NCBI GenBank assembly: GCA_008711135.1
Contig: VUAW01000016.1
Coordinates: 1 to 64,000, forward strand
Direction: 5' to 3'
Length of the DNA stretch: 64,000 nt
Source of the DNA: Rhodobacteraceae bacterium LNNU 3342
Lineage (GTDB): Bacteria > Pseudomonadota > Alphaproteobacteria > Rhodobacterales > Rhodobacteraceae
Made by a program: the position numbers and the translations under genes. Positions within the stretch are counted from its first letter, which is position 1; each line of letters starts with the position of its first letter. Positions 42,853-60,842 of the stretch are shown here, piece after piece. The notes beneath the pieces were generated by a model. That model searched no databases. It saw only the letters and a program-made list of their open reading frames with translations, and was not told where the DNA came from.

Positions 42853-43083
42853 ATGACTTGGGATGCCGAACTCGATGCCATTGGGCTGCTGTGCCCGCTT
42901 CCTGTGCTGAAGGCGCGCAAGCGGCTTTCAGCGCTGCCGCCCGGAGCGGTGCTGCGCATGCTTGCCACCGATCCTGCCGCCCATGTAGACGTGCCCCACT
43001 TCTGCAACGAGGCGGGGCACGCGCTGGTCGGCATCGATCAGGAAGGCGAAACCATCGTCTTCCTGATCCGCAAGGGCGGCTAG
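42853..43083 (+). CDS. TusA-family sulfur carrier protein
   Basis: 76 residues. The single sulfurtransferase cysteine is Cys14 in LCPLPVLKARK, the CPxP motif of the TusA/SirA/YedF family. TusA passes persulfide sulfur to acceptors in tRNA thiolation and molybdenum-cofactor enzymes. It stands at the edge of the formate dehydrogenase locus, converging with the Fe-S protein gene with a shared CTAG. A supply of sulfur to FdhD is an attractive but unproven role. Confidence 0.85.
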   Translation: MTWDAELDAIGLLCPLPVLKARKRLSALPPGAVLRMLATDPAAHVDVPHFCNEAGHALVGIDQEGETIVFLIRKGG

Positions 43084-45083
43084 TTGCGGTAGTCCTCGGC
43101 GGTGCGGACGCGGGGGCGCGGGATGCCTTCGTGCGGGTCGAACCCTTCAGTCACGACAGCCTCGACCCGGCAATCTTCGCACATCGAAAGGATGCGCAGC
43201 CGTTCCTGCCCCGCAGCACCCGAAAACATCCAGTGGCCTGCCAGCTTGGCCTGAACCCGGTTGATGCTGGACATGGTGCCAAAGGCCTTGCCGCAGGCGG
43301 TGCAGCAGGCGGGTTCTTCCTCGTTCAGAACGCGGCGCGGCTGGTTCCAAGCGGCAAAGTCGATGCGCGGTTCCAGCGTGATGGCGCGTTCAGGGCAGGT
43401 CCCGGCACAAAGGCCGCACTGCACGCAGGCGCTTTCGGTAAAGCGCACCATCGGCCGGTCCGGGTTGTCGGCCAGCGCCCCTGTCGGGCAGACGCCGACG
43501 CAGGCCAGGCACAGGGTGCAGGCGTCGGCATCGACGACAACCGCGCCGAAAGGTGCCCCGGGTTGCAGCGCGATGGTCTGGGCAGGCGCGGGCGCGTGGC
43601 GGTTCATCTCTTCGAACGCAGTAGTCAGCAGGCCGCGCTTGGCCGTGGGCGGCAGGAAGGATGACCGGTCGGCCCGCACCGCAGAGGCCGGTTGCCACAG
43701 CGCCTCTTCCATCGCGTCCGGATCGTCGGCCTGCAGCAGGGCAACGGACGCGGGGTCATTACCCGTTGCCCCCATCACCTCGCGCATCAGGGCGAGCGTG
43801 GCCGTCAGCCCCGAAATATCATGGCGCGGCCGCAGCGGCGCCAGCAGTTGCACCCCCCCTGCCCCATAGGCCATGGCAGAGGCGAGAATTTCCGGCCCCA
43901 CCTGCGTCAGTTCGTTCACAAGCAGCGGGACCACATGCGCGGGCAGCCCCCGACCAAAACGCGCAGCCGCGTCGATCAGCGCGGCACCGTGATCCTCGTC
44001 ATGCAGCAGGATGACCGGGGCGCTGCGGCCACCGGCGGCGTACCAGCCCCGCATCAGGCTCCTCAGGCGGCGGGCCAGCGTCTCACCATCCGGCAGCGCA
44101 TAGCTGGCCGCCCCGGTCGGACAGGCGGCGGCGCACTGGCCACAGCCCGCGCAGATATTCGGATCGATGGCGACGCTGTCACCCACCGGCAGGATCGCCC
44201 CCGTCGGGCAAAGGTCAAGACAGCGGGTGCAGCCGGTCTGGCGGTTGCGGGAATGGGCACAAAGATCGGCGGCAAAGTTGATGAAGCGCGGTTTGTCGAA
44301 GGTACCGACCATGCCAGAGGCCGCGCGCAGCATCCGCGCCACCCCCACCGGATCCCGCGGATCGGCGCGGAAATAGCCGGGCCGAAGCTCATCTCCGGCG
44401 AAAAGCGGCTGCCCGCTGGTCAGGTCCACTACCAGATCGCAGCGGGACACGGCGCCGTTCCGCGCCGCCTCGAACCGCAGCATGTCCCGCGACGATGGTG
44501 CCGGCGCGGCGTAATCATCGACTGTCAGCTCAAAGGCCCCCAGATGGCCACGGGCCTGCCGGACGCGGCCCTGAAGCACCGGAAAGGCGGTGCGGCGGGG
44601 CGGCATCGCCTCTGCCCCCGGCTGGAGCAGAACCGTCACGTCCAGGCTTTCGGCCAGTTCCGCGGCGGCGGCGATGGCCTCTGGCCCCGCCCCCAGAATC
44701 AGCGCGACGCCCGCGCTTTCCATCGTCGTCACCTCGAACGGCGCGGCTTCCTCGGCCGCGGCGGCAATCAGGGCTGCAGCCTTGGGACCAGCGGCCCGGG
44801 CATCGGCAGACCAGCCGCCGGTTTCGCGGATGTTGACAAAGGTGACGTCCGACACACCGGCCTCGGCGGCGATTTCCTCGAACAGGGGCTGTTCCTGCGT
44901 GCAGGCGACCGTCAGCGGCACGCCTTCGCCCAGCGCGGCGCGAAACCGGTCAAGCTGCGCGCGGCAAAGCTGCGTGGCCCCTTCCGCGACCCGGCCGCAT
45001 CCCGCGCGTTCGATCGCGCCCGGGTCGAGCGGCATCGTCCCCTCGCAGCTGCAGGTCAGGATAAGGCGGGGGATGGCGGGCAT
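43080..45083 (-). CDS. large multi-cluster 4Fe-4S protein of the formate dehydrogenase locus
   Basis: 667 residues from the ATG at 45083. The N-terminal third has a Rossmann-like segment (ALILGAGPEAIAAAAELAE). Two ferredoxin pairs follow: CTRCLDLCPTGA with CAGCGQCAAACPTGA, and CTLCLACVGVCPTGA with CVQCGLCAGTCPERA. The C-terminus has CTACGKAF and CEDCR. It is therefore an electron-transfer hub with at least four 4Fe-4S clusters. It is divergent from the accessory genes. I recall this protein as a frequent neighbour of rhodobacterial fdh genes, but its partner is not established. Confidence 0.75.
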   Translation of the reverse strand: MPAIPRLILTCSCEGTMPLDPGAIERAGCGRVAEGATQLCRAQLDRFRAALGEGVPLTVACTQEQPLFEEIAAEAGVSDVTFVNIRETGGWSADARAAGPKAAALIAAAAEEAAPFEVTTMESAGVALILGAGPEAIAAAAELAESLDVTVLLQPGAEAMPPRRTAFPVLQGRVRQARGHLGAFELTVDDYAAPAPSSRDMLRFEAARNGAVSRCDLVVDLTSGQPLFAGDELRPGYFRADPRDPVGVARMLRAASGMVGTFDKPRFINFAADLCAHSRNRQTGCTRCLDLCPTGAILPVGDSVAIDPNICAGCGQCAAACPTGAASYALPDGETLARRLRSLMRGWYAAGGRSAPVILLHDEDHGAALIDAAARFGRGLPAHVVPLLVNELTQVGPEILASAMAYGAGGVQLLAPLRPRHDISGLTATLALMREVMGATGNDPASVALLQADDPDAMEEALWQPASAVRADRSSFLPPTAKRGLLTTAFEEMNRHAPAPAQTIALQPGAPFGAVVVDADACTLCLACVGVCPTGALADNPDRPMVRFTESACVQCGLCAGTCPERAITLEPRIDFAAWNQPRRVLNEEEPACCTACGKAFGTMSSINRVQAKLAGHWMFSGAAGQERLRILSMCEDCRVEAVVTEGFDPHEGIPRPRVRTAEDYRN

Positions 45084-45181
45084 GGCTGGCGTCCTGTGGC
45101 TGGCTGTCCGGGAAGCCTTGCCGGAAGGGGGCAAGGTAGGTTAGGCGCATAATCTAATGCTCTGCCCAGGGAATGTCACCC

Positions 45182-45898
45182 ATGCCCACCGCCGAAGCCA
45201 CGCGCCTTTTCCTGCCGCCCCCTTTCAGCCAGCACCGGCTGGACGAAGGCTGCGTATTGAAGGAAGCTGTCCGCCGTGCCCCCGAGGATGGGGCCGGCAC
45301 CCTTGTCTGGCGCCTCGATGACAGCATCTGGTCTGCCGCCGTGGTGTTCGAGCCCGAACAGCCGCTGGCCGAGGCGCGGATGGCCTTTTTCGTCGGCATG
45401 GCGGCGCTGGCCGATGCCCTTGCCGCGCATTGCCCGCCTGAACGGGGCGTACGTTTCGCCTTCCCCGACGGCATTCTTTACGACGGCGCCCGGCTGGGCG
45501 GCGGGCGCTTTGTCACGCCCCCCGCCTGTGCCGAGAACGAGGTGCCCGAGTGGCTGGTCTTTGGCGCCGAACTGATTGCCGCGCGCAACATGCCAGATCC
45601 GGGCCGCTTCCCCGAAAGCACCTCGCTCAAGGAGGAAGAATTCGAGAGCCCGCAGGCGGTTCTTGAAAGCTTCGCGTCCTACCTGATGCTGTACTTCGAC
45701 CGCTGGACGCATAACGGCGTCACTGCGGTGACGGAACGTTACCTTGCGCGGATCGACCCGCCGATGCTTTCGGGTACGCGCAGCATCGAAGGCGGGAACC
45801 TTGTGGAACGGACGCCGTCCGGGGCGGAGCGGCGCATCGGGCTGGCCGAGGGGCTGGCCGCCTGCCGCTGGCGCGACGCAACGGGGCCGCGCCTGTGA
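45182..45898 (+). CDS. biotin/lipoate ligase-like protein lacking catalytic lysine (DUF4444 type)
   Basis: 238 residues; ATG 45182 chosen for AGGGA at 8-base spacing (an ATG at 45173 is possible). The middle reads FAFPDGILYDGARLGGG (92-108), the position of KWPND...GxKLGGIL in biotin ligases. The catalytic lysine is replaced by Arg104 and the glycine-rich ligase motif is missing, so the fold may be kept while chemistry is lost. It opens the fdh accessory operon. The function is unknown; ligand binding or scaffolding is possible. Confidence 0.72.
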   Translation: MPTAEATRLFLPPPFSQHRLDEGCVLKEAVRRAPEDGAGTLVWRLDDSIWSAAVVFEPEQPLAEARMAFFVGMAALADALAAHCPPERGVRFAFPDGILYDGARLGGGRFVTPPACAENEVPEWLVFGAELIAARNMPDPGRFPESTSLKEEEFESPQAVLESFASYLMLYFDRWTHNGVTAVTERYLARIDPPMLSGTRSIEGGNLVERTPSGAERRIGLAEGLAACRWRDATGPRL

Positions 45899-46449
45899 TC
45901 CGCCTGCCGCGCACCATCCAGCTTGACGGTTCGGACAAGGTGATCTTTGTCCCCGCCGCCGAACCCGGCGAGTGGGCGGTGCCCGGTACTTTCCTTTTCG
46001 CCCACCGCCCCGCAGACAGCCTGACCCGGAAAGAGGCTATCGCCTTTCGCAGCGGCTTTCTCGGGATCGCGAGCTTTGGCCATTCTACCCTTGTCACGGT
46101 AACCGAGGCCACGCCAGAAGACCGCGCCGCCATGGTCGAAACGCTTGCCGACCGGCTTGTGACCCATCTGGGGGCGCCTGACATCAGTATCGCCCGCCCC
46201 GCCGCCGAGGAAGAAGTGCGGCTGGCCGAGGATATCTGCCGTGGCCATCCCATCGGCACCCTGATCGCTCTGCACCGCAGCCGCGACGGCGACGATATCC
46301 GGGAACAGTACCGCACCCTGCGGCCGCGCGACGAAACCGCCTTTGGCGCCGGCTACCTGCGCGGCCACGACCGCGCCTTCTTCATCGTCGAAACCGACGA
46401 GGGGGAGGAGGAGCCCGTAGACCTGCTGAACCTGAAGGACAAGACATGA
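45895..46449 (+). CDS. small accessory protein of the fdh locus (recalled as DUF6505)
   Basis: 184 residues, acidic, no signal peptide or membrane segment. It starts at GTG in the stop of the preceding gene (GTGA) and overlaps the next by 4 bases. I recognise it as one of the uncharacterised families regularly found beside formate dehydrogenase genes, but the DUF number is from memory. There are no recognisable catalytic motifs; the C-terminal stretch ends with an acidic EEEPVDLL segment. The operon position suggests a role in cofactor or Fe-S assembly. Confidence 0.6.
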   Translation: MIRLPRTIQLDGSDKVIFVPAAEPGEWAVPGTFLFAHRPADSLTRKEAIAFRSGFLGIASFGHSTLVTVTEATPEDRAAMVETLADRLVTHLGAPDISIARPAAEEEVRLAEDICRGHPIGTLIALHRSRDGDDIREQYRTLRPRDETAFGAGYLRGHDRAFFIVETDEGEEEPVDLLNLKDKT

Positions 46450-47438
46450 GGGAATTCTGGGTCGCCAGCGGCCATCATCTGACGCGGCTTGATGCGCACG
46501 GCTGGCTCGCCGTGACGGATGAGCTGCTTCTAGCCTGGCTCGCCCGCCCCGAGGTGCTGCCCCCCGAGGAAGCCTGCGACACGGAACGGGCAATTCACGC
46601 CCGGCTGATGGCAGACCCTCGCGCGCCCGTCACGGATGCCGAGGTCGCGGCGATGGCCGATGCGGACGCGCAGGAAAACTGGCGCTTCCTTTTGCATCTG
46701 CGCGAGGTGCTGCTGCGCGAGGGCACCATCGAGGGCGCCTACCTGTCGCTGGTGCGGCAAGGCGCGCGGATGCCGCCGGTGTTCTATGACCAAATGGTGC
46801 AGTTGATCCTGCGCAACGCGCTTCAGGGGTGCGAGGATGTGCACACCCTGCGGGCGGCCGAGCTTCTGTACCGGGCCCAGCGCGGCCATGTGCAGGACGG
46901 GGCGCTCATGCTCGCCGATGAAGAGCTGGTGACCGAGATGGAAGCAGAGCGTCACCGCTCGCCCCTCACGGCGATGCTGTCAGGCGGGGTGGCCGGGCTG
47001 GATGTGCTCACCGAATCGAACGCCTGGACGTACTGGAGCAGGTCGGACGCCCATACGATGGTGCTGAACTTTGGCGGCGATCCGGCGGCGCGGCAGGGGC
47101 TGGCGGCGGCGATTGCGGCATTCGTTTCACACCTGCTGGGGGTGGCGGTGATGGTCGCCCCACATACGATGGCCGAAGGGGTAGACCTGCACTGGTTCGT
47201 CGGGCTGGACGCACAGGGGACGGCGATCGGCAATGCGCTCTGGCAGGGGAAGGAACCCCCGGCGACGATGGTGGGGCTGTTCACGCTGGATTTCCTCGAC
47301 GCGTCTGCTGTCCTGCCCCGGGTCGCGGGGCATCCGGTGTGGCTTATCCTTGGGCTGGGTGCGGACATGGTGCTGCGGGTGAAACCCCAGAACCTCGTGA
47401 TGGGCCTGCCGCTAGCGGAAATGGCGCGCAACGCGTAA
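46446..47438 (+). CDS. accessory protein of the fdh locus (recalled as DUF6352)
   Basis: 330 residues, soluble. The N-terminal half is helical (ENWRFLLHLREVLLREGTIE) and the C-terminal part beta-rich (GLFTLDFLDASAVLPRV). No metal or nucleotide motif is visible. It overlaps the previous gene by 4 bases and lies 9 bases before the DUF3305 gene, so it belongs to the same polycistron. The family name is recalled, not searched. There is no basis for a specific function. Confidence 0.6.
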   Translation: MREFWVASGHHLTRLDAHGWLAVTDELLLAWLARPEVLPPEEACDTERAIHARLMADPRAPVTDAEVAAMADADAQENWRFLLHLREVLLREGTIEGAYLSLVRQGARMPPVFYDQMVQLILRNALQGCEDVHTLRAAELLYRAQRGHVQDGALMLADEELVTEMEAERHRSPLTAMLSGGVAGLDVLTESNAWTYWSRSDAHTMVLNFGGDPAARQGLAAAIAAFVSHLLGVAVMVAPHTMAEGVDLHWFVGLDAQGTAIGNALWQGKEPPATMVGLFTLDFLDASAVLPRVAGHPVWLILGLGADMVLRVKPQNLVMGLPLAEMARNA

Positions 47439-47447
47439 GGTAGCCCT

Positions 47448-47963
47448 ATGCCGACCGAAGTGCACAAGCTGGGCGTCATCGCCCGTTCCCGCCCGCCCGC
47501 GACCCGCTGGGCTGATCGCCAGTTGTACCCGCATGACCTGCTGCCGCTGGTGCCGGCCACTGCGCCGCGCACCCTGATCGCGGAACGGGACGGGGTGCAG
47601 GACTGGTATCTGGGCGGCCATGATCTGGTGCTGCATTCCGGCGACACCGGTTATTACCGGGACAACCTGATGTCGGCGCGGCCTTCGGTCTGGGTGGCGT
47701 TGTCGATGCCCCACGACCCTGAACGGACGGCGGTGCACATGCTTACCGCCGACCCGTACGAGGGCGAGGGGCTTGCCGGTGATCCGGGGCTGCTAGTGGG
47801 GGCGGTGCCGATGCCTGCCGCGATTCAGGCGGTCCTTCAGAACTTCATCGCCGCGCATCACGTGGAACACAGCTTCCAGAAGCGGCGCCGCAGCCCGGCG
47901 GCAGCCTCCTCTGACCGCGCGCCGCGCATTCTTCAGCCGCATGAGAAATGGGGCCGCAAATGA
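47448..47963 (+). CDS. DUF3305 family protein
   Basis: 171 residues, cytosolic. Contains PPATRWADRQLYPHDLLP near the N-terminus and a WVALSM-to-YEGEGL stretch that I associate with DUF3305. The family occurs almost only with DUF3306 next to formate dehydrogenase genes. The ATG of DUF3306 overlaps its stop (ATGA). Function unknown. Confidence 0.7.
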   Translation: MPTEVHKLGVIARSRPPATRWADRQLYPHDLLPLVPATAPRTLIAERDGVQDWYLGGHDLVLHSGDTGYYRDNLMSARPSVWVALSMPHDPERTAVHMLTADPYEGEGLAGDPGLLVGAVPMPAAIQAVLQNFIAAHHVEHSFQKRRRSPAAASSDRAPRILQPHEKWGRK

Positions 47964-48502
47964 GTGAGGGCTTCCTGGACCGCTGGTCCCGCCGCAAGCG
48001 CACAGCTGACCTGCCGAAGCAGGAGGAACCCGCGTCCGAGCCCCCGTCTAAAATCGAAGCCGAGGAAGAGGTTCCGGCCGACCTTCCCGACCCCGAATCC
48101 CTTACGGCAGAGAGCGACATTACCGTTTTCCTGCGCAAGGGCGTACCAGCCGCCCTGCGGAATGCAGCCCTGCGCCGCATGTGGGCGCTTGACCCGGTCA
48201 TCAGCAACCATCGGGATGTCGCGGTCGACTATGCGTGGGACTGGAACACGCCCGGTGGCGTACCGGGAAACGGCGTGGCGCCCGCCCCGGAAACGATCCA
48301 GCGGATGGTGCGCGACCTGCTGGAACCAAGGCAGGAACTGCCTCCTTCGCCCGTGGAACAAGCAATGGAAGAAGGGCCGAAACAGCCCGATCCCTTGCCT
48401 GCGGATGAGCGGAAAGCCGCGCTTCCAACCCCGGACCCGGAGGTCCTTTTGGAAGAGCCACCGCGCCCCCCACGTCGGCACGGCGGGGCGCGTCCCGTCT
48501 GA
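47960..48502 (+). CDS. DUF3306 family protein
   Basis: 180 residues. It starts with MSEGFLDRWSRRKRTA, typical of DUF3306, then has a low-complexity acidic Pro/Glu segment (residues 20-45) and a short helical core (LRKGVPAALRNAALRRMWALD). The tail from residue about 115 is disordered and proline-rich. It is likely an adaptor in formate dehydrogenase assembly. It is the last gene before a 154-base gap holding an inverted repeat. Confidence 0.7.
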   Translation: MSEGFLDRWSRRKRTADLPKQEEPASEPPSKIEAEEEVPADLPDPESLTAESDITVFLRKGVPAALRNAALRRMWALDPVISNHRDVAVDYAWDWNTPGGVPGNGVAPAPETIQRMVRDLLEPRQELPPSPVEQAMEEGPKQPDPLPADERKAALPTPDPEVLLEEPPRPPRRHGGARPV

Positions 48503-48582: not shown

Positions 48583-48656
48583 TGATATGCAATAGGCACA
48601 GGTAGCCAGCCAAGCGGCAAAGTCAACAGCCGCAGCCAGTGAAGAAGGGCCTTGTT

Positions 48657-49262
48657 ATGACGACCGCCCGTCCGGCCTCTGCCGGGCATTCCGAGGATGA
48701 TCTGCTGCGTAGTCAGCAGTACGGGCTTCTGGCCCGCGCCCTTGGCGCTGCGCCCGATTCCGGTTTCCTCACGGCGCTGGCGGGGCTTTCCGGTGATTCC
48801 TCGACCGCGCTTGGTCGCGCCTATGACGCCGTGGCTGCCCGCGCCGCGCAGGCGGACGTGGCTGCGGTGGAACGCGAATATTTCGAGCTTTTCATCGGCG
48901 TCGGCCGAGGAGAGCTTCTGCCCTACGCCTCTTTCTACCTGACCGGATTCCTGAACGAACGGCCGCTGGCCGACCTTCGGGCCGATCTTGCGCGGCTGGG
49001 CCTTGCCCGGGCCGAGGGCCGGCATGAGCCCGAGGATCACATCGCCTTCCTGATGGAGGTCATGGCCGGTCTGGCCGGGGGCGCGTTCGGTGCGCCGAAC
49101 CTTGACGAACAAACCTTTTTCGCCCGGCACATCGCGCCTTGGGCAGTCCAGTTTTTTGACGATCTCGCCCAAGCCCCCAGCGCGGATTTCTATCGCCCGC
49201 TGGCCGAGGTGGGGCGGATCTTCATCGAAATAGAGGCGCGCGCCTTCGCCCTGTCAGACTAG
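48657..49262 (+). CDS. TorD/DmsD-family molybdoenzyme chaperone
   Basis: 201 residues. The helical bundle carries YFELFIGVGRGELLPYASFY and EPEDHIAFLMEVM, the family hallmarks of redox-enzyme maturation proteins that bind Tat signal peptides and guard cofactor insertion. The client is presumably FdhA, encoded next. The ATG at 48657 is preferred; an in-frame GTG at 48639 is a second candidate. Confidence 0.88.
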   Translation: MTTARPASAGHSEDDLLRSQQYGLLARALGAAPDSGFLTALAGLSGDSSTALGRAYDAVAARAAQADVAAVEREYFELFIGVGRGELLPYASFYLTGFLNERPLADLRADLARLGLARAEGRHEPEDHIAFLMEVMAGLAGGAFGAPNLDEQTFFARHIAPWAVQFFDDLAQAPSADFYRPLAEVGRIFIEIEARAFALSD

Positions 49263-49316: not shown

Positions 49317-49336
49317 TCTAAAAAGGGGGGCACGAA

Positions 49337-49549
49337 ATGTCAAAACAAGACAGCGGGAATCGTATCGGCCGGCGAGGTTTCTTCGGCGCCGCCTTGGGCG
49401 CGGCCTCGGCCGCCGCGGTGACTGCCGGCGGCGCACGGCCGGTCATCGCCCAGGAAACCGGTGATGAGCGTACCAAGGCCCGCTACCAGGAGACCGAGCA
49501 CGTGCAGGCCTTCTACCAGACCAACCGCTACTACATGAAGGGGGAGTGA
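49337..49549 (+). CDS. formate dehydrogenase region Tat-target protein (TIGR02811)
   Basis: 70 residues. A twin-arginine signal (IGRRGFFGAALGAASAA, residues 11-27) is followed by an Ala/Gly-rich core and a short mature region ending YYMKGE. Tiny proteins of this family precede fdhA in many proteobacteria. It is 3 bases before fdhA. Possibly exported as a complex with FdhA, but no function has been shown. Confidence 0.85.
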   Translation: MSKQDSGNRIGRRGFFGAALGAASAAAVTAGGARPVIAQETGDERTKARYQETEHVQAFYQTNRYYMKGE

Positions 49550-52527: not shown

Positions 52528-53124
52528 ATGGCACGCATGAAATTCCTCTGCGACGCGGACCGCTGCATCGAGTGCAACGCCTGCGTCACCGCCTGCAAGA
52601 ACGAGCATGAAGTTCCGTGGGGCATCAACCGCCGCCGGGTCGTCACCATCAACGACGGCCTGCCGGGGGAACGCTCGGTCTCCATGGCCTGCATGCACTG
52701 CACCGACGCGCCCTGCGCCAGCGTCTGTCCCGTCAGCTGCTTCTACACGACCGATGACGGGGTCGTTCTGCACTCCAAGGACACCTGCATCGGCTGCGGC
52801 TACTGCTTCTATGCCTGCCCCTTCGGGGCGCCGCAGTATCCGCGGGTGGGCAACTTCGGCACCCGGGGCAAGATGGACAAGTGCACCTATTGCTCAGGCG
52901 GGCCGGAAGCTGACCGGTCCGAGGCCGAATACGTCAAGTACGGCACAAACCGGCTGGCCGAAGGCAAGCTGCCCCTGTGCGCCGAAATGTGTTCCACCAA
53001 GGCGCTGCTGGCAGGCGACGGTGACATCATCGCCGACATCTACCGTGAACGGGTCGTGACGCGCGGCTATGGGTCGGGCGCCTGGGGCTGGCGCACTGCC
53101 TATGGCGACAGCGTCAGCGTCTGA
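52528..53124 (+). CDS. fdhB: formate dehydrogenase beta subunit, 4Fe-4S
   Basis: 198 residues from ATG 52528 with GGAGAG upstream. It is cysteine-rich: CIECNACVTACKNEH, CMHCTDAPCASVCP, CIGCGYCFYACPFGA and further Cys at CTYC and CAEMC, the four-cluster pattern of periplasmic formate dehydrogenase electron-transfer subunits. There is no C-terminal membrane anchor of the FdnH type, so it is held by FdhA and the cytochrome b. It carries electrons from FdhA to the gamma subunit. Confidence 0.95.
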   Translation: MARMKFLCDADRCIECNACVTACKNEHEVPWGINRRRVVTINDGLPGERSVSMACMHCTDAPCASVCPVSCFYTTDDGVVLHSKDTCIGCGYCFYACPFGAPQYPRVGNFGTRGKMDKCTYCSGGPEADRSEAEYVKYGTNRLAEGKLPLCAEMCSTKALLAGDGDIIADIYRERVVTRGYGSGAWGWRTAYGDSVSV

Positions 53125-54198: not shown

Positions 54199-55257
54199 AT
54201 GACCCAAGCCCCCCAAGACATCGACGCCCAGGCGCGCCGCGCCCTGCGCGAGGTGACGCTGCCGGATGGCGCGACGCTTGATGCCTCTGGCCGGCTGGGC
54301 GCGATCAGCCTGCGTGACGGCCGGATCAACACGGCCATCACCATAAGCCCCGCCGAGGCACAGGCGTTTGAGCCGATCCGTGCGCGGGCAGAACAGATTC
54401 TTTCAGGCTTGCCCGGCGTGCATCAGGCAGCTGTAGTGCTGACGGCAGAGCGCGCGGCCCCTGCCCCGCCCTCGCTGATCAAGCCAAAGACCAAGCCCCC
54501 GATTCTTCCCGACGTGCGGCATGTGATCGCCGTTGCTTCGGGCAAGGGGGGCGTTGGGAAATCCACCACGACCGTCAATCTTGCGCTGGCGCTGCGGGCA
54601 CAGGGGCTTCGGGTAGGGATTCTTGATGCCGACATCTACGGACCCTCGCTGCCCACGCTTCTGGGGCTGCACGGCCGCCCGCGGGTTGGCGCCGACCGCC
54701 GCCTGATCCCGACCGAGGCCTTCGGCCTTCAGGCCATGTCCATCGGCCTGCTGGTGGATGAGGATACGGCGATGATCTGGCGCGGGCCAATGGTCATGTC
54801 CGCCATCACCCAGATGCTGGCCGAGGTTGATTGGGGGCGGCTTGACGTACTGCTGATTGACATGCCGCCCGGCACCGGCGATGCGCAGCTTGCCATTGCC
54901 CAAGGCGCGACCCTGCGGGGCGCGGTGATTGTTTCCACCCCGCAAGACTTGGCGCTGATCGACGCGCGGCGCGGCATCTCCATGTTCCGCAAGGTGGATG
55001 TGCCAATCCTCGGGCTGGTGGAGAACATGGCCCATTTCGTCTGCACCGACTGCGGCGCCCGCCACGACATCTTTGGCAGCGGCGGCGCCGAAGCAGAGGC
55101 CACCCGGCTGAACGTGCCCTACCTAGGCGCAGTGCCCCTGACCATGGAACTGCGCGAAGCCTCGGACCGGGGGCGTCCGGTGGTCGCGCTGGCGCCGGAC
55201 GGGGTGATCGGACAGGTCTATCAGAACATCGCGCGCCGGCTGATCGACGCGCTGTAA
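54199..55257 (+). CDS. Mrp/NBP35-type iron-sulfur cluster carrier ATPase
   Basis: 352 residues. An N-terminal MIP18/DUF59-like region (1-85) is followed by a P-loop ATPase with deviant Walker A GKGGVGKST (115-123), DADIYGPS and Cys282/Cys285 (CTDC) that hold a bridging 4Fe-4S cluster. It carries Fe-S clusters to apoproteins; in this place probably to FdhB or to the large Fe-S protein. It could also be the cell's general Mrp, since only one copy is in view. Confidence 0.9.
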   Translation: MTQAPQDIDAQARRALREVTLPDGATLDASGRLGAISLRDGRINTAITISPAEAQAFEPIRARAEQILSGLPGVHQAAVVLTAERAAPAPPSLIKPKTKPPILPDVRHVIAVASGKGGVGKSTTTVNLALALRAQGLRVGILDADIYGPSLPTLLGLHGRPRVGADRRLIPTEAFGLQAMSIGLLVDEDTAMIWRGPMVMSAITQMLAEVDWGRLDVLLIDMPPGTGDAQLAIAQGATLRGAVIVSTPQDLALIDARRGISMFRKVDVPILGLVENMAHFVCTDCGARHDIFGSGGAEAEATRLNVPYLGAVPLTMELREASDRGRPVVALAPDGVIGQVYQNIARRLIDAL

Positions 55258-55286
55258 CAAGCCTTTAAGGGAAGGAGAATGAAGCG

Positions 55287-55442
55287 ATGAAAGTATTTCT
55301 TGCCGCGCTTGTCGCCGCGATCGGTCTGGCCTGGGGCGCCGGCTACGTGCTCGACAACCAGTTCCAGATCACGAGCCCCGAGGCTTTCACCACCGAAGGC
55401 GCGCGTCCGAACGCGCCGGGCGGGAACCTCGTCCAGTTCTGA
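55287..55442 (+). CDS. 51-residue single-helix membrane protein of the fdh locus
   Basis: ATG at 55287 with GGGAAGGAG upstream at 11-15 bases. The protein begins MKVFLAALVAAIGLAWGAGY, a short hydrophobic helix that may be an anchor or a signal peptide, and then has a soluble tail rich in Pro, Gly and Thr ending LVQF. It has no Cys or Lys/Arg motif of interest. It follows the Mrp gene by 29 bases and ends directly against the opposing moeA stop (TGATCA). I do not recognise the family. Confidence 0.65.
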   Translation: MKVFLAALVAAIGLAWGAGYVLDNQFQITSPEAFTTEGARPNAPGGNLVQF

Positions 55443-57563
55443 TCAGATCCCGAAGCTGCCATAGGGCAGGAAGCGGACAAGGTCGCCCGGCTGAACATGC
55501 CGGGCGCCATCCCCCAGTTCCACCAGCCCATCGGCCCAGCTCAGCCCGCTGATCCGACCAGAGCCTTCAGAGGCGAAAACTTCTGCCCGGCCGTCAGCCG
55601 TGAGGCGGCCACGAAGATATTCGCGGCGGCCGGCCTTCTTGCGTTTCTCGAACGCCGCTGGCACGTCAAACGCCTGCGGCTGCGCCCACCCCGCCCCTGA
55701 CAGGGCCGACAGCGCGGGACGGCCAAAGATCAGCGTGCAGACAAAGGCAGCGACCGGATTTCCCGGAAGGCCCAGTACCGGCACCCCCCGCCACAGCGCA
55801 AGCGCCAGCGGCCGCCCCGGCTTCATCGCGATCCGCCAGGTCTGCAACCCGCCAGAGGACCGAAGCAACGCTGACACATGATCCTCATCCCCCGCCGAGG
55901 CGCCGCCAGAGGTCAGGATCACGTCCGCCCGCGTGGCCGCATCGTCCAGCCGCGCGCGCAGGGCGACAGGATCGTCGGCCACATGGCCGAGATCCACAGG
56001 CGCATGGCCCCAACGCTGCGCCAGCGCCAGAAGCATGGGCCGGTTCGCGTCGGCAATCCGCGCCGGATTGTCGTCCAGCGCCGCCGGGTCCGGGACGATC
56101 TCATCCCCCGTGGAAAGCACGCCGACCCGCAGCGGGCGGCAAACCGGCACCTGCGCCACGCCCACCGCAGACAGCAGGGCCAGATCCGGCGCGATCAGCT
56201 GCCGCCCCTTTGGCAGCGCAACAGCCCCTTTCTCAACATCCTCGCCGGCACGACGGGTGTTTGCGCCGCGTTTGACCGGCCCGTTGAAGGCGATGCGCAA
56301 CCCGTCCGTGGCCGTATCTTCCTGCAGGATCACGGTATCAACGCCCTCTGGCAGGATCGCCCCCGTCAGGATGCGGACTGCCGATCCCGCAGGCACCGGC
56401 CCGCCAAGCGGCGCCCCGGCAGCCGCCCGCCCCTGCACCAACGGCATGTTCTGCGGGCCCTCCCCAGTTGCGGCATGGGCAAAGCCATATCCATCCACCG
56501 CCGAATTCGCCGCCGGCGGATTTGACCGCGCCGCCACAACATCCTGGGCCAACACACGCCCCAGCGCGGCGGCGGGGGGCAGTGTTTCCGTTCCTACGAC
56601 CGGGGTCAACCGTGCGCGCAGCAAGGCCAATGCCTCATCCACCGGGGTCCAGTCCACGCCCGGCGGCAGGGCGAAGCAGTCATCCGCCAGCCGGGGCGGG
56701 GCCAGGGGGTCCAGCAGCGCCTCTTGCCCCACACCAAGGATCCAGCCTTCCTCACGCAGGACCTCGGCGTTGGCGGCAGGCTTTAGCAGCGCATCAATAC
56801 GAGGCCCGAGCCGGTGCAGCGCCTGCGCCAGCAGCCGCACCTGAACCTCGTCCCGGATCGCTGCCGGATCACCTGCGCATTCGGCGTTGGCGGCAGCGAC
56901 CAGAAGCGAAGGATAAACCTCCGCCAGCACGATCGGTTTTTCTGTCGGTTCAAACGGCCAGACAGCGACCGCGTCGCCCAGTTCACGCCGCAGCCGCGCC
57001 AGTGCCGCAATTCCCAGCAGCGCCTGCGAGCCGACGGAACCGGTCGTGTAAAGCTTCCAGCAGGGCTGCGCGCGGGGCACATGCAGTTCGACCTGCCGCC
57101 GTTCCGGCAGGCCGTGGCCAGCCCGCTCGGTCCCGCGCTCCGGCAGGTCAGGCAGGTCCAGCCCGGCGGGCCGCCCCCAGAACGGCCCCTGCCCCGGAAA
57201 CCGCGCGTTGATCTGCGCCGCCAGCGCGAACCGGTTGTTCCGGTTGTCGGGCGCATCCTCGACCTCTTCCTCCAGCAGGTCCCACAGGGCCAGCGCCTCT
57301 GCCTGGCCTGTCAGGGCGGCGGCAAAGCCTTTGGGATAGCCAAAGGGGAAATCCGCCCCGATCAGAAGCCGTTCCCCTGCCGCCAGCGCCTCGCGGCACA
57401 GATCCTGCAGCGCCGCCATGGCCTCGGCGCGGCTCCGGTAATAGGCGGTTGTGGTGCCCGTGGCCGAACTCAGCCCGATCCAGATCGCATCCGCCGAAGG
57501 CGCGGCGGGCGACGGCGCGGAGGCCGCTGACCAGTCAATGATGGCGATGCAGTCAAAGCTCAT
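55443..57563 (-). CDS. moeA: fusion of DUF429-like RNase-H-fold domain with MoeA
   Basis: 706 residues, about 300 more than MoeA. Residues 1-300 contain IIDWSA (Asp10), IGADFPFG (Asp71) and LAEVYPSL (Glu215), the pattern of DUF429/RNase-H-like folds. Residues about 302-706 are MoeA: NSAVDGYG (Asp357), GAILPEGVD and LSTGDEIVP, SGGASAGDEDH. MoeA inserts molybdate into adenylylated molybdopterin. The gene heads a moeA-mobB-mobA-fdhD operon with 4- to 8-base overlaps, so its product serves the formate dehydrogenase. Confidence 0.85.
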   Translation of the reverse strand: MSFDCIAIIDWSAASAPSPAAPSADAIWIGLSSATGTTTAYYRSRAEAMAALQDLCREALAAGERLLIGADFPFGYPKGFAAALTGQAEALALWDLLEEEVEDAPDNRNNRFALAAQINARFPGQGPFWGRPAGLDLPDLPERGTERAGHGLPERRQVELHVPRAQPCWKLYTTGSVGSQALLGIAALARLRRELGDAVAVWPFEPTEKPIVLAEVYPSLLVAAANAECAGDPAAIRDEVQVRLLAQALHRLGPRIDALLKPAANAEVLREEGWILGVGQEALLDPLAPPRLADDCFALPPGVDWTPVDEALALLRARLTPVVGTETLPPAAALGRVLAQDVVAARSNPPAANSAVDGYGFAHAATGEGPQNMPLVQGRAAAGAPLGGPVPAGSAVRILTGAILPEGVDTVILQEDTATDGLRIAFNGPVKRGANTRRAGEDVEKGAVALPKGRQLIAPDLALLSAVGVAQVPVCRPLRVGVLSTGDEIVPDPAALDDNPARIADANRPMLLALAQRWGHAPVDLGHVADDPVALRARLDDAATRADVILTSGGASAGDEDHVSALLRSSGGLQTWRIAMKPGRPLALALWRGVPVLGLPGNPVAAFVCTLIFGRPALSALSGAGWAQPQAFDVPAAFEKRKKAGRREYLRGRLTADGRAEVFASEGSGRISGLSWADGLVELGDGARHVQPGDLVRFLPYGSFGI

Positions 57564-58054
57564 AGCCCCACCTCTGACAGGATGAAGTCGGCAATGGCAC
57601 GGGTGTCGTCCAGGTCGAACAGCGGAACGTTCAGGTCCGGAAGGGCGGTATCGCTTGCCACGGCGCAGATCGTCCCGTCTTCAGACGCCAGCAAGGGCCG
57701 ACCAGCGGCGGCGCGATGGGTTTCGATCTTGGGGTGGTCGTCGCGCTTGTAACCTTCGACCAAGACCAGATCGACGGGCGACAGCCGGGCCAGCAGGTCG
57801 CGGAAACGCGGCTCTGGCGCGCTCCGCAGTTCATGCATCAAGGCCCAGCGCGAGGAAGAGGCGAGCAGCACCTCCGTCGCGCCGGCCTCGCGGTGGCGAT
57901 GGCTGTCGCGGCCCGGCTGGTCGATATCGACCTGATGGTGCGCGTGCTTGATGGTGGACACGGTAAAGCCGCGGCCGGTGATTTCGCTCACCAGCCGCTC
58001 CATCAGCCCGGTCTTGCCGGTGTTCTTCCAGCCGACAACGCCATAGACCCTCAT
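57560..58054 (-). CDS. mobB: molybdopterin-guanine dinucleotide biosynthesis protein B
   Basis: 164 residues, a P-loop GTP-binding protein with VVGWKNTGKT (6-15) and VDLVLVEGYKRDDHPKIE. MobB supports MobA in making the bis-MGD cofactor of FdhA, though it is not always essential. It overlaps moeA and mobA by 4 bases each. Length is normal for the family. Confidence 0.93.
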   Translation of the reverse strand: MRVYGVVGWKNTGKTGLMERLVSEITGRGFTVSTIKHAHHQVDIDQPGRDSHRHREAGATEVLLASSSRWALMHELRSAPEPRFRDLLARLSPVDLVLVEGYKRDDHPKIETHRAAAGRPLLASEDGTICAVASDTALPDLNVPLFDLDDTRAIADFILSEVGL

Positions 58055-58668
58055 GTGGCGCTCCGCAGCAGCGCCTCTGCTCCGGCCATGTCTTCGGGCA
58101 TGTTGACGTTGAAGAACGGGTCAAAAGGCTCTGCCTCAAATCGGGCGGTGCCGGCGCCATGGGCATCGGTCCAAAGAACGATCTTCCGCAGCCCCCCCTT
58201 CAGTGCGTCGCGCAGATCCTCGCGCAGCGCCACGGGCCAGAGGCCGAAGGTTGGGTGACGGCGAAGGCGCCCGTCCTCGTCCGGCGTGGCCGCAAGGGCC
58301 AGCCCTGAAGGTCCGGCCGCATCCTGCAGTCGCGCCACAAGGTCGCGCGGGAAAAAGGGCGTATCGGCGGCCGCGGTCACGATCGCCCCGGCCCCCAGCT
58401 CGGCCGCCCAGTCCAGCCCCGCCAGCACCCCGGCCAGCGGCCCCGGATGATCGGCAAGGCTGTCAGGGAGCACCGGCAGGCCCAGCGCGGCGAACCGCGT
58501 GGGATCGCCATTCGCGTTCAGCGCCATCGGCCCCACCTGCGGCGACAACCGGTCAATGACATGGTCGATCAGCCGCCGGTCGCCCAACGGCCGCAGTCCC
58601 TTGTCGCCACCCCCCATGCGGGTCGCGCGGCCCCCGGCCAGGATCACCCCCGCGATGTGGTCACTCAT
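58051..58668 (-). CDS. mobA: molybdenum cofactor guanylyltransferase
   Basis: 205 residues. The nucleotidyltransferase signature is LAGGRATRMGGGDKGL (10-25); AADTPFF and VNMPEDM follow. It attaches GMP to molybdopterin to form bis-MGD. The start at 58668 is the family start; the longer frame goes through fdhD. It overlaps fdhD by 8 bases and mobB by 4. Confidence 0.94.
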   Translation of the reverse strand: MSDHIAGVILAGGRATRMGGGDKGLRPLGDRRLIDHVIDRLSPQVGPMALNANGDPTRFAALGLPVLPDSLADHPGPLAGVLAGLDWAAELGAGAIVTAAADTPFFPRDLVARLQDAAGPSGLALAATPDEDGRLRRHPTFGLWPVALREDLRDALKGGLRKIVLWTDAHGAGTARFEAEPFDPFFNVNMPEDMAGAEALLRSAT

Positions 58669-59533
58669 CTTGCGCCCCCTTGCGGCGATGGCGCGAACCT
58701 TCCTCGGCCACCAGTTCCGGATCGGCATCCCAGACCAGCCGGTGATCGCCCGACAGGCAGACAAAGCGCCGCCCCCGCATCCGCCCGATCAGCGTCAGCC
58801 CCACCTGCCGCGCGATTTCGACCCCCCAGGCGGTAAAGCCCGACCGCGAGGCCAGCGCCGGAATCCCCATCATCGCCGTCTTGATCACCATCTCCGAGGT
58901 CAACCGTCCGGTGGTGTAAAGGATCTTGTCCGCCGGGTCGGCCTTTTCCAGCATCATCCAGCCGGCGATCTTGTCCACTGCGTTGTGACGGCCCACGTCC
59001 TCCATATAAACCAGCGGCCGGTCCTGATGGCACAGAACGGTACCGTGGATCGCCCCGGCCTCTAGGTACAGGCTGGGCATGCGGTTGATCTGGTGCGCGA
59101 GCGCATAGAGCCACGAGGTCCGCACCGGCGTATCCGGCAGCACCAGCCCCTCCAGCCCCTCCATCATGTCGCCAAAGACGGTGCCCACGGCACAGCCAGA
59201 GGTGCGGGTCTTTTTCCGCACCTTTTCCTCATAGGTCGTGCGGCTGGCGGTGCGGACGACGACGGTTTCAAGCTCCTCGTCGTAATCGACGCCGGTAACG
59301 GTTTCCTCTGGCCCGAGCATCCCCTGGTTGCGCAGAAAGCCCAGCGCCAGATATTCGGGGTAGTCCCCGATCGTCATCGCCGTCACCACTTCCTGGCTGT
59401 TGAGGAAGATGGTCAGCGGCCGCTCCTCGACCACGCGCAGATCGACCGTGGCGCCGGTGTGGTCACGGCCGCTGACCGATCGCGTGAGCCGCGGGTCCAG
59501 CGGGTTGGGGCCGATGATGGGGCGCTCTGTCAT
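58661..59533 (-). CDS. fdhD: formate dehydrogenase accessory sulfurtransferase FdhD
   Basis: 290 residues from ATG 59533. Landmarks are LGFLRNQGML, RTSGCAVGT (Cys114), YMEDVGRHNAVDKIAG and LTSEMVIKTAMMGIP. FdhD carries sulfur from a cysteine desulfurase to the Mo-bis-MGD cofactor before insertion in FdhA. Here only one cysteine is present at the place where the E. coli protein has a CxxC pair. It is the first gene of the minus-strand operon and is divergent from the WD40-cytochrome gene. Confidence 0.94.
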   Translation of the reverse strand: MTERPIIGPNPLDPRLTRSVSGRDHTGATVDLRVVEERPLTIFLNSQEVVTAMTIGDYPEYLALGFLRNQGMLGPEETVTGVDYDEELETVVVRTASRTTYEEKVRKKTRTSGCAVGTVFGDMMEGLEGLVLPDTPVRTSWLYALAHQINRMPSLYLEAGAIHGTVLCHQDRPLVYMEDVGRHNAVDKIAGWMMLEKADPADKILYTTGRLTSEMVIKTAMMGIPALASRSGFTAWGVEIARQVGLTLIGRMRGRRFVCLSGDHRLVWDADPELVAEEGSRHRRKGAQDE

Positions 59534-59639
59534 GTGACACCTTGGGCGGGTTCCGGGGGGCGAAGGTGCAACAGGGCGCGGGTCCTTGTCCAGACGTTGC
59601 CACCGCCCTAGGCTGATGACAAAGCGGAAAGGCGGCGCG

Positions 59640-60842
59640 ATGCGGGCAGTTGTTGCAGGGCTGGCGATGATGATGGCGGCGGGGGCAGCTGTGGCGGGCG
59701 ACCTGCAGGGCCATGGCGGGCCGGTCAGCGCCCTTGCGGCAGCGGGCGACGTGGTGGTTTCGGGATCCTTCGATACCCGGGCGATCGTGTGGGATCTGGG
59801 GGCTGGCACCGCGCTTCGGGTGCTGCGGCATCATGAAGGCAATGTTTCGGCCGTGGCGCTGGGGCCTGAGGGGCCGGTGACGGGCGGGCAGGACGGGCGC
59901 GTAGTGATCTGGCCTGAGGATGCGTCCGAACGCGCCCATGCCCTGCATCAGGCGCCGGTGGCCGCGCTGGCGGTGCTGCCGGACGGCGGTGTGGCCTCGG
60001 CATCGTGGGACGGTACAATTGCCCTGACGGGGCCGGATGGTGCGGTGGCGGCCCGGCTTTCGGCGCATGAAGGAAAGGTGACCGGCCTTGGCCTGCTGGA
60101 AGGGCGGCTTGCCAGCGTGGGCGAGGATCTGCGCCTGCGGCTGTGGGACGGGTCCCAGACTGCGGCGGTGGTGGACCTGCCGGCCCAGCCGAATGCGATG
60201 GCCGCGGCGGGCCCGCTTGCGGCAGTGGCCTTTGCCGATGGCGTGCTTCGCCTTGTCGGGCCGGATGGGGTGGCAGAGGAACGGTTTCTGTCTGACCGGC
60301 CGCTGATTGCCGTTGCCGCGCAGGGGGGGCGGATGGCCGCATCCGACATCGCCGGACAGGTATGGCTGCTGAACGGCGACGCCCCTGCCCAGCGGCTGGA
60401 GCCCGGCCAAGGTCCGATCTGGTCGCTGGCTTTTGCGGGGGACAGGTTGCTGACTGGCGGGGCGGACGGGCGCATCCGCGCTTGGTCGGCGGAAACCGGC
60501 TCCCCTTTGGCAGAAGCGGCGGCCCTGCAGATGGCCAACGATGAGGGGCCTCTGGTCTGGCGCGCCTGCGCCGCCTGCCACACGCTTGGGCCCGATGACG
60601 GGAACCGTGCCGGGCCGACGCTTTACCGGGTCATGGGCCGTCGCGCAGGAACGGTGCCGGATTATGACTACTCGCCCGCGCTGCGCGAGACTGGCATCAT
60701 CTGGACTGAGGAAACGATCGCGGCGCTGTTCACCCAAGGGCCCCATGCCTACACCCCTGGCAGCCGGATGCCCGACCAGCGTATCCCCAACCCCGAGGAT
60801 CTGGATGCGCTCGTCGCCTTCCTGAGCCGGAACGGCCGCTGA
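59640..60842 (+). CDS. WD40 repeat-cytochrome c fusion protein
   Basis: 400 residues with a signal peptide (1-19, ending AAVAG), so periplasmic. Residues 22-295 hold about six or seven WD-type repeats (SGSFDTRAIVWDL, GGQDGRVVIW, GEDLRLRLWD, GGADGRIRAW). Residues 300-400 are a class I cytochrome c with CxxCH at 310-314 and Met377 as the likely axial ligand. It is divergent from fdhD. A periplasmic electron acceptor for formate dehydrogenase, or a sensor or scaffold, is possible. ATG 59640 has GGAAAGGCGG upstream. Confidence 0.85.
   Translation: MRAVVAGLAMMMAAGAAVAGDLQGHGGPVSALAAAGDVVVSGSFDTRAIVWDLGAGTALRVLRHHEGNVSAVALGPEGPVTGGQDGRVVIWPEDASERAHALHQAPVAALAVLPDGGVASASWDGTIALTGPDGAVAARLSAHEGKVTGLGLLEGRLASVGEDLRLRLWDGSQTAAVVDLPAQPNAMAAAGPLAAVAFADGVLRLVGPDGVAEERFLSDRPLIAVAAQGGRMAASDIAGQVWLLNGDAPAQRLEPGQGPIWSLAFAGDRLLTGGADGRIRAWSAETGSPLAEAAALQMANDEGPLVWRACAACHTLGPDDGNRAGPTLYRVMGRRAGTVPDYDYSPALRETGIIWTEETIAALFTQGPHAYTPGSRMPDQRIPNPEDLDALVAFLSRNGR

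Follow-up and report, generated by a model that had tools for sequence, protein, structure and literature searches.

Accessory gene families accompanying an FDH3-type formate dehydrogenase locus, with a possible link to tungsten

The 64-kb stretch of DNA analysed here (the window) encodes, at 43080-60842, an FDH3-type formate dehydrogenase with predicted Tat export and a set of accessory genes, as identified by family models run over the window. The accessory families are nearly exclusive to genomes with FDH3, and some keep this association even when their genes are unlinked to it. In addition, the resident moeA abuts mobB and its product carries both substitutions of the tungsten insertase MoeA1, and TupA lies near many relatives of the FDH locus; these features are new. 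From sequence comparison, the locus is on balance likely to be a module devoted to building and wiring a Tat-exported enzyme of FDH3 type, which would contain tungsten or molybdenum.

Gene content of the locus

An earlier note on this DNA had listed structural, Mo-cofactor, chaperone, and accessory genes in this region, and the family models confirmed that all of them are present (Table 1). Twelve genes form a same-strand run from the ligase-like gene (45173) to the 51-residue protein gene (55442), with gaps below 140 bp. The genes fdhD-mobA-mobB-moeA lie on the opposite strand, and the stop of moeA abuts the stop of the 51-residue gene. The first five genes of the run had been described as overlapping. 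Overlaps of 4 bp were found for ligase-like/DUF6505, DUF6505/DUF6352, and DUF3305/DUF3306 (with the DUF3306 start taken as 47960); the description fails between DUF6352 and DUF3305, which are separated by a 9-bp gap. The same run contains an ApbC/Mrp NTPase gene that was absent from the earlier gene list. A 626-aa ORF at 41203-43083 was judged mostly spurious, with DeoR- and glyoxalase-type genes on the other strand; its TusA end does match a family.

Table 1. Genes of the FDH3-type formate dehydrogenase locus in the window
Product	Position	Strand	Features
667-residue polyferredoxin	43080..45083	-	four 4Fe-4S motifs, N-terminal conserved Cys, C-terminal CxxC...CxxC pair
biotin/lipoate ligase-fold pseudoenzyme, PF16917	45173..45898	+	GRGR loop deleted, catalytic Lys replaced by Arg
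DUF6505 (PF20115)	45895..46449	+	family model 185 bits
DUF6352 (PF19879)	46446..47438	+	family model 169.7 bits
DUF3305	47448..47963	+	family model 113.7 bits
DUF3306	47960..48502	+	67.4 bits (frame 47948-48502); further in-frame ATG at 47948
TorD/DmsD-family chaperone	48639..49262	+	Nitrate_red_del/TorD 104 bits
70-residue Tat-signal peptide protein	49337..49549	+	formate_TAT TIGR02811, under cut-off
FdhA, catalytic subunit	49553..52513	+	twin-arginine signal RRSFLRG, Cys in RICHS motif (both read by eye)
FdhB, FDH3 beta subunit	52531..53124	+	NF038355
FdhC, cytochrome b gamma subunit	53140..54144	+	TIGR01583
ApbC/Mrp-type Fe-S carrier NTPase	54199..55257	+	NUBPL/ParA domain 335 bits
51-residue protein	55287..55442	+	single hydrophobic segment (by eye)
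MoeA with extra N-terminal domain	55443..57563	-	KPGRP and NPVA, as in tungsten insertase MoeA1
MobB	57560..58054	-	family model
MobA	58051..58653	-	family model
FdhD sulfurtransferase	58661..59536	-	family model
WD40 beta-propeller and class I cytochrome c fusion	59640..60842	+	CxxCH, Met motif; signal-peptide-like start (by eye)

FdhB is an FDH3 beta subunit by NF038355 (338.7 bits, cut-off 240), and FdhC is a gamma subunit by TIGR01583 (155.6 bits, cut-off 115.85). FdhA scored 454.5 bits against the general alpha-subunit equivalog TIGR01591, under its cut-off of 666.25; therefore, it was assigned by its neighbours and domains rather than by this model. The small Tat peptide scored 40.1 bits (cut-off 48.45), and its position beside fdhA is kept in 86 of 86 loci with both genes.

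Co-occurrence with FDH3 across genomes

A sample of 152 genomes of the class was analysed, in which 21 genomes, spanning 20 family labels, carry the FDH3 beta subunit over cut-off. DUF3305 and DUF3306 occur in the same 24 genomes, which comprise all 21 FDH3 genomes and G071, G125, and G127; the 667-residue Fe-S protein also occurs in 24, all 21 FDH3 genomes and G053, G071, and G125. G071 and G127 do contain an FdhA of FDH3 type, on contigs without FdhB. DUF6352 was found in 21 of the 152 genomes (18 of the 21 with FDH3 among them), the 51-aa protein (E<1e-5) in 19 (17 of the 21), the WD40-cytochrome (>250 bits) in 17, 16 of them with FDH3, and DUF6505 over cut-off in 13, including 11 with FDH3. 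Fisher tests, uncorrected for kinship, gave p values of 7e-23 to 1e-9 for the tested families, which did not include the WD40-cytochrome. DUF6352 is missing in 3/21 and DUF6505 in 10/21 FDH3 genomes, so neither is universally required.

A second set of named genomes consisted of the closest 80 of 558 confirmed relatives, with 49 loci of at least 20 kb (full flank). FdhA, FdhB, the Fe-S protein, DUF6505, DUF3305, DUF3306, TorD, and the Tat peptide are present in 49/49 of these loci, followed by the ligase-like protein (48), the WD40-cytochrome (44), and the 51-aa protein (41); MoeA (31), MobB (23), and ApbC/Mrp (19) are found in only part of them. The ligase-like, DUF6505, and DUF6352 genes adjoin one another in nearly all loci holding them; of the 56 loci that contain the WD40-cytochrome gene as well as the 51-aa gene, only 33 have them within 400 bp of each other. 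The two sets overlap at least at one locus (L141 of G035, named locus L246; identical MoeA). The conserved placement stated in the earlier note is strong as measured in both sets.

Occurrence of the accessory families independently of fdhA had been named as the observation that would speak against a common system. For the most part it was not seen, with exceptions in G125, G119, G053, and G007. G125 retains DUF3305, DUF3306, MobA, FdhD, and the Fe-S protein; this genome gave no above-cut-off hit for FDH3 beta, and its 184-kb contig examined contains no such FdhA/FdhB. Another FDH served by the module was suspected among the nearby genes and rejected: models for DNA polymerase III alpha and ImuB-type proteins match the two largest of them, and a second FDH candidate (on C2) is the nitrate reductase NarGH. 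A DUF6505-like gene in G119 and a partial Fe-S homologue in G053 occur without FDH3. G007 contains pieces of DUF6352, WD40, cytochrome, 51-aa protein, and TupA; its 810 contigs gave no above-cut-off hit for FDH3 beta and contain neither DUF3305 nor the Fe-S protein.

FdhE_N (PF04216) was found neither in the genome of the window nor in the 21 FDH3 genomes. It is over cut-off in only 4 genomes of the class (p = 1); replacement of FdhE by the accessory module is suggestive, and the comparison is statistically empty.

Accessory proteins and a possible tungsten link

The ligase-like protein belongs to the PF16917 (BPL_LplA_LipB_2) fold family (177.5 bits, cut-off 27). The GRGR nucleotide-binding loop and the catalytic Lys are signatures of biotin/lipoate protein ligases. 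As judged from the alignment, both catalytic signatures have been lost from the window protein, which lacks the marks of an active ligase. The Lys is missing in 91/92 ligase-like relatives, the single exception being a canonical ligase, and is present in 10/10 canonical ligases. The profile of the FDH-locus proteins matches PDB 3BFM (E 1e-74, residues 3-232 of 235), a biotin protein ligase-like protein whose entry name gives no function; among the matches listed in a literature search, no paper was devoted to it.

In the 667-residue Fe-S protein, C11, C13, C40, and C61 are conserved in at least 90% of 18 rows. The ApbC/Mrp protein contains the NUBPL/ParA domain (Pfam cut-off 27.1) and narrowly missed the NCBIfam ApbC equivalog (330.3 vs 348). 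DUF3305 is homologous to the C-terminal part of the MobA-DUF3305 fusion model NF011058. Profile comparison detected no relationship among DUF6352, DUF6505, and DUF3305, and PDB sequence searches with the three returned nothing convincing. DUF6505 matches DUF7715, a name that gives no function, in 48/72 members (best 4e-6). The structure models of DUF6352 and DUF6505 are confident (pLDDT 94.2 and 89.1); PDB fold searches gave no good match (top values of E 0.61 and 0.37 in Foldseek, and of Z 2.8 and 3.0 in VIA), which does not demonstrate a new fold.

The window MoeA has KPGRP and NPVA where the E. coli protein has KPGKP and NPVS, with Arg and Ala (R/A) at the positions of MoeA1 Arg291 and Ala312. 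The tungsten insertase MoeA1 from Methylorubrum extorquens is reported to have these two substitutions; in the available text, a single tested protein is the basis of this residue rule (PMC13197769). R/A was found in 20/30 MobB-adjacent MoeA rows with both sites readable; the remaining 10 (5 K/S, 5 E/A) come from loci of Methylobacterium and Methylorubrum and are paralogues. In a tree of the 54 rows that reach 330 residues, with shorter pieces left out, the R/A rows including the window form one group (support 99/96), and MoeAs from two Methylorubrum species fall together with that of the window. The G122 locus has a canonical K/S MoeA, and the MoeA-PBP fusions at FDH3 loci are also K/S.

TupA was found in 10/28 FDH-locus stretches (24 genomes) vs 0/28 other stretches. 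The latter are a non-random set, to which G125 contributed 10 and G119 contributed 1; both genomes lack FDH3. Two stretches, L296 and L299 (which overlaps L136), were placed in neither set; in L296 (G028), a TupA gene neighbours the Fe-S gene, FdhD, and MobA at a distance of 32 kb from fdhB. Four TupA proteins scored 184-237 bits against the NCBIfam TupA model (cut-off 400), their sole family hit, and one TupB scored 153.7 bits (cut-off 320). The TupA candidate L136:16557-17432 is a PBP_like_2 protein. TupA is also described as able to carry molybdate (PMC12262181, in part). The tungsten link had not been seen in the earlier note.

Proposed role, alternatives, and known systems

The gene group resembles a private assembly line of FDH3 that probably loads tungsten or molybdenum, and the observations point to cofactor assembly in the cytosol and electron transfer in the periplasm. 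MoeA-MobB may insert the metal, perhaps as tungstate. The bis-MGD cofactor, which FdhD would sulfurate, may be made by MobA together with DUF3305; one curated model contains a fusion of MobA with the DUF3305 family. The cytosolic set (polyferredoxin, ApbC, ligase-like protein, DUF6505, DUF6352, DUF3305, and DUF3306) might stand in for FdhE by holding apo-FdhA/B and providing it with 4Fe-4S clusters, the cofactor, or both. TorD would guard the signal peptide, and FdhAB would exit via Tat and dock on FdhC. In the periplasm, the WD40-cytochrome c and the 51-residue membrane protein could provide a further exit for electrons, or a further docking partner, in addition to FdhC and quinone. A bolder joint reading, which we consider rather unlikely, is that FDH3 is an exported tungsten enzyme in many alphaproteobacteria and that the ligase-like protein, DUF6505, and DUF6352 form an undescribed cofactor-handover complex. 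The ligase fold, its chemistry lost, would bind either W-bis-MGD by its nucleotide portion or a stretch of apo-FdhA, and the polyferredoxin and ApbC would load clusters meanwhile.

The accessory genes might instead be ordinary operon neighbours, held by linkage and shared regulation with no role in FDH3, as the tight same-strand packing and 4-bp overlaps would allow. This is very improbable, because the families are near-exclusive to FDH3 genomes across 20 family labels and pairings survive without linkage. DUF6352 lies at least 26 kb from FDH3 in G028 (280 kb, one contig), G051, G105, G128, and G135, so that shared transcription does not by itself account for the pairing; in G064 and G087 it is on other, short contigs than FDH3. 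The Fe-S gene is likewise unlinked in G028 (38 kb), G087, and G105. Electron delivery rather than assembly, with the polyferredoxin and other accessories forming a redox complex as cytosolic electron-transfer partner, is also unlikely, although less so. The four 4Fe-4S motifs of the Fe-S protein and its weak resemblance to HdrA (heterodisulfide reductase A; 67.7 bits, NCBIfam cut-off 1100) and polyferredoxins, with all hits shown under cut-offs, agree with it. However, the Tat signal of FdhA should place the holoenzyme in the periplasm, whereas no export signal was seen by eye in the Fe-S protein; DUF6352, DUF6505, DUF3305, and the ligase-like protein have no conserved Cys motif in their alignments, and DUF3305 belongs to a MobA-fused family.

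The strongest competitor, which has a substantial chance but falls short of even, concerns the metal: the module may serve a Mo enzyme, and the nearby TupA and R/A MoeA-MobB may serve another tungsten FDH of FDH1 type in the same cell. M. extorquens FDH1 needs MoeA1, MobB, and FdhD (PMC13197769, in part), TupA is present in only 12/49 full-flank loci (closest 80 of 558 relatives), and none was found in the whole window. Nevertheless, TupA accompanies FDH3 loci in 10/24 class genomes and, together with R/A MoeA, in 3/4 plasmid loci (4 of 10 plasmid records examined), and moeA, mobB, mobA, and fdhD of the window sit in a single run convergent with the fdh genes.

CO2 reduction is an application for which formate dehydrogenases are in demand, and alpha-subunit maturation is described as the bottleneck for M. 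extorquens FDH1 made in E. coli (PMC13396061, 2026, in part). For the dedicated FDH3 module favoured here, the co-occurring accessory set provides a short list of candidate factors. A link of FDH3 to tungstate uptake and to a MoeA1-type insertase would predict the metal of the exported FDH in many alphaproteobacteria.

Several known systems resemble the window in part. TorD/DmsD-linked fdhGHI operons with DUF3305, DUF3306, fer4, and fdh-tat were published in 2015 (PMC4464133), and share the TorD-family chaperone, Tat peptide, DUF3305, DUF3306, and ferredoxin with the window. The available text terms DUF3305/3306 putative membrane proteins with no role beyond co-regulation, and does not mention DUF6352, DUF6505, the ligase-like protein, the WD40-cytochrome, the 51-aa protein, or tungsten. 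The system had been called undescribed; for the DUF3305/DUF3306/ferredoxin/Tat-peptide part this does not stand, but neither DUF6505 nor DUF6352 was the subject of any paper in a full-text literature search. The tungsten maturation pathway MoeA1-MobB-MobA-FdhD of MeFDH1 (PMC13197769, 2026, in part) is alike in its MobB-adjacent R/A MoeA, FdhD, and MobA, but MeFDH1 is a heterodimer, unlike the FDH3 type; a text search of that paper for FDH3 and DUF found neither. The E. coli FdhD/FdhE system (PMC10609526, in part) shares FdhD and maturation before Tat export, and differs in having FdhE, as the window's genome and the 21 FDH3 genomes have no PF04216 match. Campylobacter uses FdhM (a TorD homologue), FdhD, FdhTU, and TupABC (PMC10609526, PMC4178425, both in part); its FDH is likewise exported and has a chaperone of TorD type, and a tungstate transporter influences its activity. 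The other accessory genes named there differ, and its catalytic subunit contains selenocysteine (PMC4178425, in part), whereas the window FdhA, as read by eye, has Cys.

Organization of the FDH3 locus

The locus contains a run of twelve genes on one strand; three junctions overlap by 4 bp, and the intergenic gaps are shorter than 140 bp. Their order is ligase-like, DUF6505, DUF6352, DUF3305, DUF3306, TorD-family chaperone, small Tat peptide, fdhA, fdhB, fdhC, ApbC/Mrp NTPase, and a gene for a 51-residue protein. The genes named in the earlier note were right, but the ApbC/Mrp NTPase was missing from that list. Of the overlapping stops and starts described there, one (DUF6352/DUF3305) is a 9-bp gap. 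The beta subunit belongs to the FDH3 type of Tat-exported formate dehydrogenase (NF038355; 338.7 bits, cut-off 240). The NCBI annotation also calls it FDH3, and the DUF proteins carry numbers as names. By eye, the catalytic subunit FdhA carries a twin-arginine signal, and its RICHS motif contains a Cys.

Coordinates of the features of the locus (in the window unless another stretch is given)
Feature	Position	Strand	Arrangement
TusA sulfurtransferase gene	42853-43083	plus	convergent with the Fe-S gene
Fe-S gene, 667 residues	43080-45083	minus	divergent from the 12-gene run
12-gene run	45173-55442		
DUF6505	45895-46449		in the 12-gene run
fdhD, mobA, mobB, MoeA with extra N-terminal domain	55443-59536	minus	convergent to the 12-gene run
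MoeA	55443-57563	minus	
WD40-cytochrome c	59640-60842		divergent from fdhD
Second FDH3 copy in the same genome	G000:C55:32200-52100 (stretch L145)		
DUF6494 protein, two plasmids	L304:10974-11180; L305:4863-5057		

The TusA and Fe-S genes meet at their stops and overlap by 4 bp. TusA was also close to 5 of 80 named loci (the best 80 of 558 DUF6352 relatives). It is possible that TusA is a sulfur source for FdhD.

The second FDH3 copy is accompanied by separate genes for TorD, the Tat peptide, DUF3305, and DUF3306. For the Fe-S protein, DUF6352, DUF6505, and the ligase-like gene of the FDH type, the genome gave a single match each; therefore, both copies would have to share them.

Co-occurrence of the accessory genes with FDH3

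The FDH3 beta subunit was above the cut-off in 21 of 152 class genomes (G-numbers below), spread over 20 family labels. DUF3305 and DUF3306 occur in an identical set of 24 genomes, consisting of all 21 FDH3 genomes and three more. The Fe-S protein was likewise found in 24 genomes, all 21 with FDH3 and three more. DUF6352 is present in 21 genomes (18 with FDH3), DUF6505 above its cut-off in 13 (11), the 51-residue protein at E <1e-5 in 19 (17), and a WD40-cytochrome match of more than 250 bits in 17 (16). At the looser limit of the search, 88 genomes matched the WD40-cytochrome, because ordinary cytochromes and propellers also match. For the families tested, Fisher p values ranged from 7e-23 to 1e-9, uncorrected for kinship and with the WD40-cytochrome outside the test. 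PF16917 as a whole is found in 97 of the 152 genomes, since it also captures ordinary ligases. The type at FDH loci was set apart by score, and most of the stretches read place it next to DUF6505, DUF6352, or FDH3.

Two of the extra genomes (G071 and G127) have an FdhA of this type on contigs without fdhB. The exceptions include G125 (DUF3305, DUF3306, Fe-S protein, MobA, and FdhD without FDH3), G119 (a DUF6505-like gene), and G053 (a partial homologue of the Fe-S protein). G007 is another exception: in this assembly of 810 pieces, DUF6352, WD40, cytochrome, 51-residue protein, and TupA lie together on one contig. The G125 genes form a retained DUF3306-DUF3305-mobA-fdhD-Fe-S cluster on contig C3 (stretch L162); NarGH is on C2.

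The pairing of DUF6352 and of the Fe-S gene with FDH3 persists where the genes are unlinked. On the single contig of G028, DUF6352 and FDH3 are 280 kb apart; the distance is at least 26 kb in G051, G105, G128, and G135, as estimated from contig extents. It is on separate contigs in G064 and G087, which are too short for a distance. In G028, 38 kb separate the Fe-S gene from fdhB, and in G087 and G105 the two are on different contigs. Among 239 genomes sampled across the phylum, DUF3305 occurs in 31, including every one of the 13 that have DUF6352; therefore, DUF3305 is the wider core and DUF6352 is a nested addition.

Loci from named genomes were also read, namely those of the best 80 of 558 DUF6352 relatives; 49 of these loci span at least 20 kb. 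All 49 contain FdhA, FdhB, the Fe-S gene, DUF6505, DUF3305, DUF3306, TorD, and the Tat peptide. The ligase-like gene and FdhC were each found in 48, the WD40-cytochrome in 44, the 51-residue protein in 41, MoeA in 31, MobB in 23, and ApbC in 19. DUF6505 and DUF6352 are on the same strand and at most 400 bp apart in 88 of the 88 loci that contain the two; the same was true of the ligase-like gene and DUF6505 in 84 of 85. DUF6352 was found on 10 plasmid records, and the FDH3 locus on all four of those opened.

Accessory proteins and proposed mechanism

The catalytic Lys is absent in 91 of 92 ligase-like members, whereas 10 of 10 canonical ligases have it; the remaining member, from G087, is a canonical ligase too. 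The window's protein and 86 of the 92 members show a clean gap in place of the GRGR loop. Judged from these residues, the ligase-like protein is a predicted pseudoenzyme. A PDB structure of the family (3BFM) gives no function. DUF3305 aligns with the C-terminal portion of a curated model for MobA-DUF3305 fusions, and the direct gene order fdhD-mobA-DUF3305-DUF3306 was found in G051, G125, and G128; this suggests a putative role for DUF3305 in the MGD step. In the Fe-S protein, four ferredoxin motifs are combined with conserved Cys at both ends, and no export signal was found by eye. A CxxCH and a Met-ligand motif were found in 77 of 85 WD40-cytochrome-type ORFs. In G007, G087, G127, and G128, the propeller and the cytochrome are encoded separately, on opposite strands, in the vicinity of the 51-residue gene. 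The structural models of DUF6352 and DUF6505 are confident (pLDDT 94.2 and 89.1), and no convincing structural match to either was found in the PDB. Pfam DUF7715 was weakly matched by 48 of 72 DUF6505 members (best 4e-6), which suggests that the two might be related families.

The genes most likely form a cytosolic loading part and a periplasmic part. In the cytosol, MoeA-MobB would load the metal, MobA, perhaps with DUF3305, would make bis-MGD, and FdhD would sulfurate it. The Fe-S protein, ApbC, the ligase-like protein, DUF6505, DUF6352, and DUF3306 might hold apo-FdhA/B receptive and load it, while TorD would watch over export. In the periplasm, FdhABC would deliver to quinone, and the WD40-cytochrome and the 51-residue protein may be an additional outlet or dock.

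Metal specificity and relation to known systems

According to PMC13197769, the tungsten enzyme FDH1 of Methylorubrum extorquens needs MoeA1, MobB, and FdhD (essential), and Arg291 and Ala312 of MoeA1, with Lys and Ser in Mo insertases, bias the metal. For M. extorquens PA1, PMC13396061 mentions a host strain with a quadruple fdh mutation. The window's MoeA has Arg/Ala at these sites vs Lys/Ser in E. coli MoeA. Among 37 MobB-adjacent MoeA-type rows, 20 are Arg/Ala, 5 Lys/Ser, and 5 Glu/Ala; three have Arg with the second site cut off, and four have both cut off. All 10 Lys/Ser and Glu/Ala rows come from Methylobacterium or Methylorubrum loci, with several MoeA-type genes around one mobB. Two Lys/Ser genes were checked, and both are MoeA-PBP (PF12727) fusions; such fusions co-occur with TupA in 86% of cases, according to PMC11733289. 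In the MoeA tree, the Arg/Ala rows (n=23), including the window and two Methylorubrum species, form one group (support 99/96). Residues 1-300 of the window's MoeA are an N-terminal domain without a Pfam match, which resembles an uncharacterised domain that the curated model PRK14495 joins to MobB.

Of 28 FDH-locus stretches, from 24 genomes, 10 (in 10 genomes) contain TupA (NF041772), vs none of 28 control stretches totalling 511 kb (p = 4e-4). The controls were a convenience set rather than a random sample, and a TupA 32 kb from fdhB in G028 is in neither set. It was also found in 12 of the 49 full-flank named loci, and in three of the four plasmid loci opened, each of the three with an Arg/Ala MoeA. 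Beside ABC-transporter genes, TupA, and the FDH3 locus, two plasmids encode a small DUF6494 protein. Counting against tungsten, the locus of G122 has a canonical MoeA, TupA was not found within the 64-kb window, and the residue rule for tungsten rests on one protein. The odds that tungsten is the metal at the window's locus are about even.

A full-text literature search, with subscription journals mostly outside it, found no paper with DUF6505 or DUF6352, and none among the matches listed on 3BFM or the FDH type of the ligase-like family, or on a WD40-cytochrome c with FDH. The core association of DUF3305, DUF3306, ferredoxin, and Tat was published in 2015 (PMC4464133). The locus therefore combines a known core with a number of uncharacterised parts, and its predicted metal can be put to the test.
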